Below are positions 3,790 through 7,738 of a stretch of DNA of 64,000 bases, piece by piece. Position numbers and translations under genes: made by a program. The notes under the pieces were generated by a model. That model made no database searches. It saw only the letters and a program-made list of their open reading frames with translations, and was not told the DNA's origin. Position 1 is the first letter of the stretch. Each line of letters starts with the position of its first letter. The stretch lies in contig NZ_CP095053.1 of assembly GCF_022921095.1 (NCBI RefSeq), positions 248,001 to 312,000 on the forward strand. Reading direction: 5' to 3'. Origin of the DNA: Hymenobacter aerilatus. GTDB lineage: Bacteria > Bacteroidota > Bacteroidia > Cytophagales > Hymenobacteraceae.

Positions 3790-3863
3790 ACAACAGAAGA
3801 AAAGCTTGGATTGGGCACAGATTAGCGAACTTCGTGGTGCGTTGCTACCCGCCAGCCCGCCGA

Positions 3864-5384
3864 ATGAAAGAAGAAATCAGAACGAAATACGCTAATCTGT
3901 CGCAACTAGCCATGTGGGCGTGGCTGCTACCCGCGCTGCTGTTGGTGCTGGCAGTGCGGCTGCACGGCTTGTCGCAGGCCTCCTTAGCTGATTTCGACTC
4001 GGTGCGCAACTGGCAGATTGTGCAGGAGGTAGCTGCAGGCAATCTGCACGACTGGTTTCACCATCGCAGCCCCGGCTTCTACCTGTTCTTCGCGCCTCTG
4101 GCGGCTCTGCACCCCGATTTTCATTGGTTTCTCTACCTGAACGCCCTGCTATCAGTAGTAGCGGTAGGGTGGCTGACGCATTTTATCAGTATCGAGGCGG
4201 CCCTGCGTCCTTTCGAAGCGGTCCTGCTGGCGTTGCTGCTGGGCACCTCCACGTTCCTGACCTTTTCGGGTCGCGATTTTGCGCTCAGTTCTCTCAGCCT
4301 AGTGCTGTACGTGGGACTGTTGCGAAGCTATTTTTTGCGGCTGCAGCAGCCCTCTCGGCGGCAATTGCTGCGCGCAGTTACTTGGGTAGCAGTGGGACTC
4401 ACCGTGAATTATAAGTTCTTGCTGGCCCTACCCATTATCGGCCTTTTCGAGCTGTTGCGGGCCGATAAGCTGCTGTTGCAGCGCGGCATGCTGTGGCGGG
4501 TGTTGGGTATTCTGGCTGCGCCTTACGTGGTGCTGAGTCTGATCGGCTGGATGTCTGGCCTACCCTGGTGGCGCTGGCTAGCTATGTACTACGACATCGT
4601 ATTTCCTACCCAGCCTAATGCGGCCGGGCGCACGGGTCACATGCACTTCGATGTATTGTATTACCCGCGCTTTCTGCTCGATTTCGAGTCCCCGCTTTCC
4701 TGGCTGGGGGTAGGGCTGTTTCCGGTGGTGTTCTGGCGCGAGGTGCGAGCTACCTGGCAGCGGCCCAGTTTGGCGCTGTACGTGGCCGTGTGGGCGTATT
4801 GCTGGCTGGCGGGCATGTCGCTGCTGCTGAAAGCGCCGCGGGGGCTACTATTTGCTTACGGCTTGTTTGCTATCCTGGGGTTCCTGGTGCTGCGACGTTT
4901 AGGCCGTGGGCAGAGCGTAGTAGTAGCGGTACTCACTATTGGAGCCATTGGCTGGAATTTCACTCGCATCCGGGCCGAAGTGTATGCCTACACCCCCACA
5001 AACTACCCGGCAGTGGCTACGTGGCTGCATGCGCATGGGGCGCACCGCATGGTGAGTACGGTAGGGCTGAGCCTGGCGCCTTATCTTGCGCCTACCGATT
5101 CTATTCGGGCAATTACCACAGAGCGGGTGTTGCCCACGTTTCGGCGGCGGGGCTACCGCTACGTATTGCTGGATGGCTACTGGCGCGTGACCAACATTCG
5201 GCAGTTCGACTCGCTGCGCCGGCAGCCGCCCGTTGCGGCGTGGTCGGAGCCGATGCTGGTAGCCCCTCTGAATTTTCTGGAGCACTCTGAGTATACAGCC
5301 CTCTCGTACACTGAGACGCTGCAGCTGCAACGGCTAGCGCAGCGCGACACCACACAACTCCTCTTATATAAATTACAAGAGTAG
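3864..5384 (+). CDS. GT39/ArnT-like multi-pass membrane glycosyltransferase
   Basis: The 506-residue protein has about 11-12 hydrophobic helices and, after the first, an acidic loop LADFDSVRNW, where GT39/PMT-type (GT-C fold) transferases keep their catalytic aspartate. The RSPGFYLFFAPLAAL segment that follows is typical of this superfamily. Such enzymes use polyprenyl-phosphate-linked sugars and glycosylate lipids or proteins outside the membrane. The ATG at 3864 is preferred over an earlier in-frame start at 3834, which lacks support. It leads a run of four same-strand genes with gaps of 32, 9 and 6 bases, and the last two are ArnC- and formyltransferase-like. The acceptor is unknown. Confidence 0.75.
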   Translation: MKEEIRTKYANLSQLAMWAWLLPALLLVLAVRLHGLSQASLADFDSVRNWQIVQEVAAGNLHDWFHHRSPGFYLFFAPLAALHPDFHWFLYLNALLSVVAVGWLTHFISIEAALRPFEAVLLALLLGTSTFLTFSGRDFALSSLSLVLYVGLLRSYFLRLQQPSRRQLLRAVTWVAVGLTVNYKFLLALPIIGLFELLRADKLLLQRGMLWRVLGILAAPYVVLSLIGWMSGLPWWRWLAMYYDIVFPTQPNAAGRTGHMHFDVLYYPRFLLDFESPLSWLGVGLFPVVFWREVRATWQRPSLALYVAVWAYCWLAGMSLLLKAPRGLLFAYGLFAILGFLVLRRLGRGQSVVVAVLTIGAIGWNFTRIRAEVYAYTPTNYPAVATWLHAHGAHRMVSTVGLSLAPYLAPTDSIRAITTERVLPTFRRRGYRYVLLDGYWRVTNIRQFDSLRRQPPVAAWSEPMLVAPLNFLEHSEYTALSYTETLQLQRLAQRDTTQLLLYKLQE

Positions 5385-5416
5385 GTGCAGTGGCACGACG
5401 AATAATTATGCCGTAA

Positions 5417-6115
5417 ATGAAAAAGGTAGCTATTCTGCAATCAAACTATATTCCCTGGAAAGGGTATTTTGATATTATTCACGCAGTAGATGAATTTATT
5501 TTATACGATGATATGCAGTATACACGCCGCGACTGGCGTAATAGAAATAAAATTGTTACATCACACGGCTTGCAATGGCTGACTATACCGGTGCAACAAT
5601 ATGACTTCAAGCAAAAAATAAAGGATACGCCCGTCATAAGTTCAATTTGGCAACAAAAACATTGGCGTAGCATCCAGCAAGCGTATGCGAAGTCTTTGTT
5701 TTTTAAAAATTATGAAAGCATTTTTCAAAGTTTATACGAGGCTAATCAATATACTTATTTAAGCGAAATCAATTATACTTTTATTAAGGCTATTTGTGAC
5801 GTGCTTGGTATCACTACCAAAATTTCCTGGTCGATGGAGTATACCTTAGCTGCGGGAAAAACTGAGCGGCTGGTGAAGCTGGTGCAGGATGCAGGCGGTA
5901 CAGAATACTTATCGGGGCCAGCGGCCAAGGACTACCTGGACGAGTCGTTGTTTGCAGCGGCTGGTATTGCGGTGCGTTGGATGGATTACAGCGGCTATCC
6001 GTCGTATCAGCAGCTTGGCAATCAGCCGTTCGAGCACGGTGTTTCGGTGCTGGATCTATTGTTCAACGAAGGCCCGAACGCGCCGAAGTTTATGAAAACC
6101 TTTTCTACTCCCTAG
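5417..6115 (+). CDS. WbqC-like family protein
   Basis: The 232-residue protein starts with MKKVAILQSNYIPWKGYFD and continues with YDDMQYTRRDWRNRNKI and WLTIPV, the hallmark block of the WbqC-like family found in O-antigen and other surface-polysaccharide clusters. The biochemical role of the family is not established, as far as I know. The first two-thirds of the gene is far AT-richer than its surroundings: I count about 32 percent GC over 5641-5820, against about 60 percent over 5881-5940 in the same gene. That suggests transferred or recombined DNA. It lies between two glycosyltransferases in one transcription unit. Confidence 0.85.
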   Translation: MKKVAILQSNYIPWKGYFDIIHAVDEFILYDDMQYTRRDWRNRNKIVTSHGLQWLTIPVQQYDFKQKIKDTPVISSIWQQKHWRSIQQAYAKSLFFKNYESIFQSLYEANQYTYLSEINYTFIKAICDVLGITTKISWSMEYTLAAGKTERLVKLVQDAGGTEYLSGPAAKDYLDESLFAAAGIAVRWMDYSGYPSYQQLGNQPFEHGVSVLDLLFNEGPNAPKFMKTFSTP

Positions 6116-6124
6116 CTTTCGTAC

Positions 6125-7054
6125 ATGACGGCCGTTGCTTATTCTGTTATCGTACCGGTGTACCAAGGCGAAGAAACCCTGCGCCCATTGGTGGCACAAC
6201 TGCGCGATTTCTTTGCGCAAGCCGGCTGGACGTACGAAATCATCCTCGTGTACGATTGTGGCCCCGACCAGTCGTGGGCGGTTATTCAGGCGCTGCACCA
6301 GCAGTTCGGGAACCAGGTAAAAGGCGTGCGGCTGTCGCGGAACTTTGGGCAGCATAACGCTCTAATCTGCGGGTTTGGGCACGCCCGTGGCCAGTTCATC
6401 ATTACCCTAGACGAGGATTTACAGCATCGTCCCGCAGATATTGCCTTGCTGATTGCGCAGCAGCAACAAGGCAATTTTGATGTGGTATATGGCAAATATG
6501 AAACCCTGCAACACTCCGCTTTTCGTAATTACACTTCTCGTCTGTTAAAGAAGTTGCTGCGCGTAGGTATTCCGGGATTACACTCAGATTACTCGGCTTT
6601 TCGGCTGATAAAAACCAGTGTGGCGAAATACTGTCTGGAGATGAATAATTCGTATACGTTTCTGGATGGTTATTTATCCTGGATAACAGATAGTGTGAGT
6701 AGCGTAGCCGTGGCACATCAACCACGAGTCGCTGGAAAAAGTAGTTATACTCTACGAAAATTACTCAATCACTCTATCAATATATTTGTTACATTTTCTG
6801 ATTTGCCCGTGCGGATTTTATCCGTGCTTTCTATTCTTGTCTTTTTAGTTACGCTGATATATTCCACTTATGTGTTGATTCGTAAGCTGATCTATAATGA
6901 CTTTCTTTCTGGTTTCCCTTCGCTGATTATTGCCATTGGTTTTGGGGTAGGGCTTATTATGCTAGGCATGGGTGTTCTGGGCGAATACATACACCGCATT
7001 AATTTAAAAACCACCCGGCGGCCAAACTTTGTGGAGCGGGAAACGCTGGACTAG
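6125..7054 (+). CDS. ArnC-like GT2 glycosyltransferase with two C-terminal membrane helices
   Basis: The 309-residue protein has a GT2 (GT-A fold) domain over residues 1-220 and two transmembrane helices at about 235-255 and 270-292. The central block RNFGQHNALICGF.HARG..IITLDEDLQ and the end GMGVLGEYIHRI closely parallel ArnC/DPM1-type transferases, which load a sugar onto undecaprenyl phosphate on the cytoplasmic side. The usual DDG nucleotide-binding motif is YDCG here (residues ~41-44), a variant also seen in relatives. The second half of the gene (about 6480-6960) is AT-rich. It starts 9 bases after the WbqC-like gene and ends 6 bases before the formyltransferase. Confidence 0.88.
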   Translation: MTAVAYSVIVPVYQGEETLRPLVAQLRDFFAQAGWTYEIILVYDCGPDQSWAVIQALHQQFGNQVKGVRLSRNFGQHNALICGFGHARGQFIITLDEDLQHRPADIALLIAQQQQGNFDVVYGKYETLQHSAFRNYTSRLLKKLLRVGIPGLHSDYSAFRLIKTSVAKYCLEMNNSYTFLDGYLSWITDSVSSVAVAHQPRVAGKSSYTLRKLLNHSINIFVTFSDLPVRILSVLSILVFLVTLIYSTYVLIRKLIYNDFLSGFPSLIIAIGFGVGLIMLGMGVLGEYIHRINLKTTRRPNFVERETLD

Positions 7055-7060
7055 CACTAC

Positions 7061-7738
7061 ATGAAGCACCGAATTGCTTTTCTGGTTTCGGGTGGTGGGG
7101 GCACGCTGCGCCTGGTGCATCAGGCAGCGCGCCGCTTGCAGTTACCCTGGGAAATCTGCCTGGTGCTGGCCGACCGGCCCTGCGGTGCTCTGGCCTATGC
7201 CGACGATCAGCAATTGCCGGTAGCGCAAGTAACCTATTCCCGGCAGGCGCCCGAAGCGTTGCAGGCGGCGCTGCAACAAGCCCAACCCGATGTGGTGGTA
7301 TTGGCTTTCGACCGTATCCTGGATGCGGCAACGCTGGCATTGTTTCCTGGGCGCTTTATCAACGTGCATTATTCCTTGCTCCCGTCTTTTGCCGGTCTGG
7401 TAGGCATGAAAACCGTGGAGCAGGCGCGGGCGCAACAGGTACGCATATTGGGCGCCACGTGCCATGAGGTGACAGAGCAGGTAGACGGCGGCCCGGTGTT
7501 GGCCCAGTGCGCCCTACCTGTCGACTGGCAACGCGATGCGCCTGCTACGCTGCACCAAGTGCTGTTTCGGGGCGCGGGGCTAATATTATTGCAAAGCCTG
7601 TTGCACCGGTTTGGGTGGGTAGGCGGCCCCGAGCAAGAGCAACTCCGCTACCTGCAAAAAACGCTGCTGTGCTCCCCGCCGCTAACCTTTGATGCCGGAC
7701 TGCTGACCGAGGAGTTGTGGCAGCAAGTAAGTGGCTAA
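7061..7738 (+). CDS. Formyltransferase-family protein, probably a sugar N-formyltransferase
   Basis: The 225-residue protein has the formyltransferase fold used by PurN, Fmt and ArnA: a glycine-rich start (FLVSGGGGTLRL), then FINVHYSLLPSF carrying the catalytic Asn and His, then a conserved Asp in EQVDGGPVLAQ. These enzymes move a formyl group from N10-formyltetrahydrofolate to an amine. The genes next to it make lipid-linked sugars, so an amino-sugar substrate is more likely than a purine intermediate or Met-tRNA. That is inference from context. It is the last gene of the cassette and converges on mltG with an 11-base gap. Confidence 0.8.
   Translation: MKHRIAFLVSGGGGTLRLVHQAARRLQLPWEICLVLADRPCGALAYADDQQLPVAQVTYSRQAPEALQAALQQAQPDVVVLAFDRILDAATLALFPGRFINVHYSLLPSFAGLVGMKTVEQARAQQVRILGATCHEVTEQVDGGPVLAQCALPVDWQRDAPATLHQVLFRGAGLILLQSLLHRFGWVGGPEQEQLRYLQKTLLCSPPLTFDAGLLTEELWQQVSG

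Follow-up and report, generated by a model that had tools for sequence, protein, structure and literature searches.

The window analysed here is a 64,000-nucleotide stretch of the 5.28-Mb genome of Hymenobacter aerilatus (C1:248001-312000). It carries four genes that run in the same direction, with intergenic gaps of 32, 9 and 6 bases. They encode a polytopic membrane protein of 506 residues with seven hydrophobic segments, a putative GT-C glycosyltransferase (3864..5384, + strand, in a frame open from a GTG at 3834); a WbqC family protein (5417..6115, + strand; PF08889, 266 bits, E 3.7e-79); a GT2 glycosyltransferase (ArnC/GtrB type) whose C-terminal part contains two hydrophobic segments (6125..7054, + strand; PF00535, 89 bits); and a PurN-like formyltransferase of a separate group, hereafter FT (7061..7738, + strand; PF00551, 93 bits). 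The open reading frame (ORF) coordinates and Pfam matches confirmed the positions reported in a first-pass annotation, which had read the four genes as one cassette parallel to the Arn pathway. Our analysis favours another arrangement: with a probability of about 0.5, WbqC, GT2 and FT form an N-acylation and loading module joined to a resident pathway of WecE and the membrane transferase, together making a formyl-aminoacyl amino sugar.

The four genes are not one unit, and the part that stands separate is the WbqC-GT2-FT triplet. The membrane gene was found in 71 of 150 genomes of the family and is a resident gene adjoining yceG across much of the genus, whereas FT orthologues (at least 47% identity over nearly the full length) occur in five of the 150, the window genome counted. 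The order in the window is dtd, membrane gene, triplet, yceG; among 20 membrane-gene loci from relatives, 16 have a yceG-like gene and 11 a dtd-like gene at a distance of at most five genes. The triplet therefore lies inside an older membrane-gene/yceG arrangement. In the genome G132 (locus L245) the triplet flanks this membrane gene from its opposite side and is encoded on the other strand, and in the remaining FT genomes of the 150-genome sample (G068, G135 and G143) triplet and membrane gene lie on different contigs. Base composition is mosaic across the four genes, with a GC content of 42.8% for WbqC (the lowest among the 36 window ORFs of at least 200 aa), 47.0% for GT2, 60.9% for FT and 58.7% for the membrane gene, suggesting a recent arrival for at least WbqC and GT2.

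We compared 20 FT loci, consisting of the window and 19 (L039-L057) of the 34 loci found. In 15 of them the partner of FT is WbqC and in five (L044, L048, L050, L055 and L056) it is a gene for an ATP-grasp protein; no locus has both and none has neither (Fisher p 6.4e-5 for the 15/0 versus 0/5 split, kinship ignored). WbqC is thus a real partner of FT, as the first-pass annotation had proposed. A whole-genome search at E ≤ 1e-20 recovered that ATP-grasp protein in all five genomes with ATP-grasp loci and in none of the 15 with WbqC loci, and canonical WbqC is missing from four of the five ATP-grasp genomes, where the sole WbqC is short and divergent (91-103 bits). Three changes of partner have to be placed on the FT tree to account for the ATP-grasp loci, at least two of them forced by strongly supported branches. 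The L044 copy of the ATP-grasp protein, from Flavobacterium silvisoli and the only one scanned, belongs to ATP-grasp_4; D-Ala-D-Ala ligases and BacD are among the NCBIfam models on which it scores better, each below its own cut-off, and its best score is to a model named argininosuccinate lyase.

FT itself is PurN-like rather than Fmt- or ArnA-like. The window genome has three further PF00551 proteins, of PurU, PurN and Fmt size (names that follow length and tree place), and FT is the fourth. In the phylogeny, the 20 FT sequences and a copy from the viral-collection contig L096 form one group on the PurN/PurU side, separated with a support of 100/99 from Fmt and three Fmt-side rows, in a tree that held neither ArnA nor a proven sugar formyltransferase. 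FT resembles PurN in fold, in size and in the Asn-His-Asp set (Asn101, His103 and Asp142, invariant in 20/20), the catalytic residues of PurN-type formyltransferases. It differs in its linkage to sugar genes and in scoring 89.9 bits against the PurN equivalog TIGR00639, with a cut-off of 150.1; PurN sequence matches to FT do not extend past about residue 168 of its 225. At position 15, 18/20 FT have Thr or Ser and two of three compared PurN have Asn, a soft contrast because the third (M. tuberculosis) has Leu there. The predicted model (predicted local distance difference test score, pLDDT, 94.4) lies closest to PurN structures, then PurU, Fmt and ArnA. The first-pass annotation had likened FT to the formyltransferase half of ArnA, a parallel that our data do not support: the ArnA model NF005998 gave 28.5 bits against a cut-off of 777, set for the whole bifunctional protein. 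It had also named, as an outcome that would count against a sugar substrate, a model fitting glycinamide ribonucleotide rather than a nucleotide sugar; the PurN fold agrees with that outcome and the residue at position 15 departs from it. PurN formylates the glycyl amine of glycinamide ribonucleotide, which is an aminoacyl amide on a sugar amine. By analogy, a PurN-like enzyme would fit an aminoacyl amide on a sugar amine, that is, the would-be product of WbqC.

Fifteen of the loci found (L058-L072) were excluded from the FT set because they looked PurN-like or Fmt-side or matched only weakly and in part; the FT tree included six of these (L058, L061, L063, L066, L068 and L070), and the other nine were judged by match length and score only. 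Named Hymenobacter species are among the sources of FT relatives and syntenic loci. A search of 395 genomes drawn from the phylum gave three matches at E ≤ 1e-30: the window genome, G275 (taken as the same record as L045) and G158, which was rejected as an FT locus and assigned to ordinary PurN, with 110.6 bits, an internal stop and a next gene that is purH-like by eye. Plasmids yielded 11 partial matches, two of them annotated (purN and purU) and the others carrying no named feature; phage records yielded none at E ≤ 1e-10, and a scan of viral contigs gave two weak, partial relatives.

WbqC is described in an excerpt of PMC5532660 as functionally uncharacterised. The window protein belongs to PF08889 (266 bits over residues 8-223, against a gathering score of 21.3), its sole Pfam match at E ≤ 0.01, which leaves the BshC family PF10079 without a match; a WbqC profile run against PDB sequences returned two matches, the best at E 0.34, and nothing useful. 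An AlphaFold2 model built from 42 sequences reached a pLDDT of 94.7 and a predicted TM-score (pTM) of 0.92. With VIA-align, where a model that resembles nothing clearly usually reaches a top Z of 7-8, this model aligned to the Bacillus subtilis bacillithiol synthase BshC (PDB 4wbd) with Z 14.0 and a root-mean-square deviation of 3.4 over 221 of 232 residues, followed by class I lysyl-tRNA synthetase (LysRS-I; 1irx, Z 11.1, 173 aligned) and, further down, by CoaD, TyrRS and GluRS at Z ≤ 7.8. BshC thus resembles nearly the whole WbqC model in fold, although its solved chain is 540 residues long. BshC joins cysteine to the amine of glucosaminyl-malate, that is, an amino acid carboxyl to a sugar-borne amine; what it makes is a small thiol rather than a nucleotide sugar. 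We propose that WbqC is an amino acid : amino-sugar ligase with a BshC/class I synthetase-like predicted fold, and this fold agrees with the reaction that the ATP-grasp exchange also suggests.

As to the sugar, an excerpt of PMC7439462 gives dTDP-4-amino-4,6-dideoxygalactose (dTDP-Fuc4N) as the WecE product and states that WecD acetylates it. A WecE gene lies inside 14 of the 20 FT loci, and these 14 proteins together with the window genome's own WecE all match NF008687 at E ≤ 1e-112 (15/15). The window genome encodes its copy elsewhere (C1:1700876-1701997, L080:9859-11031), with 546.8 bits against the NF008687 cut-off of 375. The linked transaminase is therefore WecE, making dTDP-Fuc4N, and not ArnB, so that the Arn parallel does not extend to the sugar. 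The FT loci resemble instead the WecE-WecD-WecF branch of enterobacterial common antigen biosynthesis, sharing WecE and, in 4/20, a WecF-like gene; they differ in that WbqC or ATP-grasp plus FT would occupy the place of WecD acetylation, and in that the loader is usually GT2. Separately, the match to a DegT-like transaminase at G000:C1:3229565-3230497 (L075) is interrupted by one in-frame TAA and may be a broken amino-sugar gene; next to it lies a 324-aa frame resembling an acetyltransferase.

A profile of five GT2 sequences (window and four close relatives) matched the ArnC structure 9hwj over its full length at E 1.4e-45, and matched ArnC and sll0501 structures, again full length, at E 1e-45 to 1e-44. 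GT2 scored 153 bits against the ArnC equivalog NF007986, with a cut-off of 529. On these profile matches we propose that GT2 is an undecaprenyl-phosphate sugar synthase. The loader in the FT loci is a GT2 of the window's BLAST cluster in 13/20 and WecF-like in four (L049, L054, L056 and L057; three of the four Pfam-checked), and neither type is present in L045, L050 and L055. Because loci with either transfer route have the acyl module, the substrate of that module is most likely the nucleotide sugar, here a dTDP-sugar.

The membrane protein had been called GT39-like. The window protein has no Pfam match, PMT_2 was matched in 2/18 orthologues at E ≤ 0.1 (best E 8e-4), and no PDB sequence matched at E ≤ 1, so that the PMT-type assignment is not borne out; we infer a GT-C protein. 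Its gene goes together with WecE: across the 150 family genomes both genes occur in 66, WecE only in seven, the membrane gene only in five and neither in 72 (p 6e-28, uncorrected for kinship), and within the genus the corresponding counts are 53/2/3/8 (p 1e-6, kinship again ignored). The hydrophobic segments and the WecE linkage make the protein the likely final transferase. L249 and L250 come from two genomes of a different genus of the family and show the order membrane gene, WecE, GT2 and a gene of 242 aa, all adjoining. The L249 242-aa protein is WecD-like (NF008212, 86.7 bits over nearly the full length, under the cut-off of 219). The GT2 of L249 is similar to PgfS and ArnC; by gene content this cluster is possibly a dTDP-Fuc4NAc analogue of the Arn pathway.

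Taken together, these data are consistent with a five-step route. WecE, encoded elsewhere in the genome, would yield dTDP-Fuc4N. WbqC (or the ATP-grasp protein) would activate a small amino acid, with glycine or alanine as our guess, and couple its carboxyl to the sugar amine, as BshC does. FT would then formylate the new alpha-amino group from 10-formyl-tetrahydrofolate, much as PurN does with glycinamide ribonucleotide. GT2 would transfer the N-formylaminoacyl-Fuc4N to undecaprenyl phosphate, and the membrane GT-C protein would pass the sugar, on the outside, to an envelope acceptor, which may be lipid A, O-antigen or protein. Each reaction, the amino acid, the order of the second to fourth steps and the acceptor are inferred from gene content, linkage, exchange and predicted folds. 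In its general logic the route resembles the Arn (L-Ara4N) pathway, with a formylated 4-amino sugar, an ArnC-like GT2 and a polytopic membrane transferase. It differs in that the FT locus has no ArnB or ArnA partner, FT is PurN-like, and the sugar would, judging from WecE, be a dTDP-linked 6-deoxy sugar; membership in Arn was rejected, the ArnA and ArnC equivalog scores both falling short. What does survive of the first-pass annotation is the idea of an amino-sugar route with N-formylation and that of undecaprenyl phosphate loading by an ArnC-like GT2, both of which our results support.

The predicted product belongs to a type represented among O-antigens whose amino sugars bear N-acylaminoacyl groups. 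The polysaccharides of E. coli O121 and S. dysenteriae 7 have the same structure. In excerpts of the two sources, PMC3210612 gives, by citation, an N-acetylglycyl-bearing Qui4N for the "Shigella-like" polysaccharide of E. coli O121, and PMC10059132 reports an N-formyl-L-alanyl group in Vibrio anguillarum O2, so the predicted product type exists in nature.

Several observations weigh against the proposed route. A shared fold is not a function, and the BshC likeness comes from predicted structure: Foldseek alone placed BshC first, with a probability of 0.99 and a TM score of 0.41, at E 4.7e-3, and returned no match at E ≤ 0.001, while hhalign against 25 Hymenobacteraceae BshC found no sequence relation (probability ≤ 0.1%), by which a sequence link between WbqC and BshC was rejected. 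No clear HIGH-type motif was seen in WbqC. The exclusion of the two partners is not strict, since the contig L096 holds FT, WbqC and ATP-grasp together, and one ATP-grasp genome, G543, has a canonical WbqC elsewhere. L210-L212, from Pseudomonadota, carry WbqC, WecE and a similar GT2 without FT, so WbqC does not require FT. Support for the FT group is only 88/93, and the program gave long-branch warnings. WecE is absent from the fetched stretch of six of the 20 FT loci, the window included, and occurs in 73 of the 150 genomes of the family; that every one of the five FT genomes there has it is therefore weak evidence, and as a proof, co-presence was rejected on that ground. The contrast for WecD is also fragile. 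The best NF008212 match in the window genome is a 324-aa frame with 38 bits, and the cut-off of 219 is reached by none of the 150 family genomes. Matches of at least 64 bits occur in 0/5 FT genomes versus 38/68 other WecE genomes (p 0.022, kinship ignored), but that limit was set after viewing the list, the FT genome G068 has a match of 59.7 bits, and counting from 55 bits gives 1/5 versus 39/68 (p 0.17). Given this dependence on the bit limit, we offer a replacement of WecD acetylation by WbqC and FT as a suggestion rather than a result.

Four other explanations can be set against the same data. In line with the first-pass annotation, FT could formylate the sugar amine directly, converting dTDP-Fuc4N to dTDP-Fuc4NFo, with GT2 loading the product, the membrane protein transferring it and WbqC serving an unrelated step. 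Known sugar N-formyltransferases act on such amines, and the WecE linkage and the ArnC-like GT2 suit this scheme as well; yet FT sides with PurN/PurU and not with Fmt (in the tree lacking ArnA), its ArnA matches are weak, and the partner, WbqC or an amino-acid-ligase-like ATP-grasp protein in 20/20 loci, is left without a role. We consider direct formylation unlikely. The constancy of the partner bears equally on a scheme of two parallel decorations, with aminoacylation by WbqC at one position or on one sugar, and formylation by FT of a different amine. Such independence would match the occurrence of WbqC without FT in other loci and the fact that the two are separate genes in varying order (L046, L052 and L054), but none of the 20 FT loci lacks both WbqC and ATP-grasp, suggesting that it depends on their product, and parallel decoration seems quite unlikely.

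WbqC might also be a HUP-fold nucleotidyltransferase that activates a sugar or an acid rather than an amide-forming ligase. CoaD-type adenylyltransferases are indeed among its next best fold matches, with Z up to 7.8 over about 120 residues; BshC and LysRS-I have far higher Z and cover 221 and 173 residues, and exchange for an ATP-grasp gene would be left unexplained, which makes this proposal very doubtful. Finally, PurN and PurU are the best sequence and fold matches of FT, as they would be if FT were a spare purine/folate enzyme of that type, present by chance. The genome already has proteins of PurU, PurN and Fmt size, however, and FT forms its own group, linked to WecE and to WbqC or ATP-grasp in several phyla; chance presence is therefore highly improbable. 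The amide-forming route, in which FT caps the aminoacyl group added by WbqC, remains our preferred reading.

A wider form of that reading, which we put at slightly under an even chance, would make PF08889 a further branch of stand-alone ligases derived from class I synthetases, beside MshC and BshC, acting on nucleotide-linked amino sugars. Together with a PurN-like FT it would copy the second and third steps of purine synthesis, in which a sugar amine is aminoacylated and the product then formylated, to give N-formylaminoacyl surface sugars. An unrelated ATP-grasp ligase would have taken its place, or given way to it, probably more than once. In the literature searched on WbqC and aminoacylation, with subscription journals outside its scope, no enzyme was seen named for the aminoacyl step. 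If true, a testable WbqC reaction would help to explain the making of aminoacyl-capped O-antigen amino sugars, long known chemically, and would show that the logic of purine synthesis had found a second use at the cell surface. N-formyl-aminoacyl groups would also be of interest because formyl peptides act as signals in innate immunity.

The WbqC family extends well beyond the FT loci. Among 299 genomes sampled from the phylum to which Limnobacter belongs, with the Limnobacter genome counted, 74 have a PF08889 match at E ≤ 1e-40. Of 77 listed places in Pseudomonadota, 20 neighbourhoods were fetched, with the WbqC frame called in 16; a DegT-type sugar transaminase (WecE profile, E ≤ 1e-4) was found in 16/20 neighbourhoods, a count that has no control set of other polysaccharide loci beside it. 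L218, L219, L220, L221, L224 and L226 show a recurring module of WbqC, a PIG-L-like deacetylase and a DegT-like transaminase, adjoined by another membrane-type gene (by eye; only the L218 PIG-L was Pfam-checked). A small methyltransferase-like gene (207-219 aa) lies near WbqC in L210, L211, L090, L096, L100 and L104, from Pseudomonadota and viral-collection contigs, the L210 and L096 copies being Pfam-checked and the rest assigned by eye. It may methylate the aminoacyl group. In L210 and L211 it comes after GT2, so other aminoacyl caps are possible.

WbqC also occurs in 37 loci of the IMG/VR viral collection (L087-L123), many of them amid other sugar genes and often with short proteins of about 204-219 aa that are weakly WecE-like. 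Of these loci, 27 were aligned; L091 and L101 were set aside because a stop interrupts the match, and L088, L094, L098, L109, L112, L118, L120 and L121 as near-copies or partial sequences. The window genome has a second full-length WbqC, in a locus (L081:7200-11257) that also encodes a DegT-like transaminase, a flippase-like protein and a putative acyltransferase (by eye). It also has a divergent WbqC of 212 aa (L082:9877-10515, 108 bits) upstream of a clpC-like gene; a short weak-scoring type like this one is present in all five FT genomes with ATP-grasp. Upstream of the four genes, at 2788-2910 of the window and between the gene at 2039-2764 and a MazG gene, a long inverted repeat was noted by eye (cggtctgtcatcctgagcttgcgaagg... 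and its reverse complement), forming a large hairpin or an intergenic repeat element.

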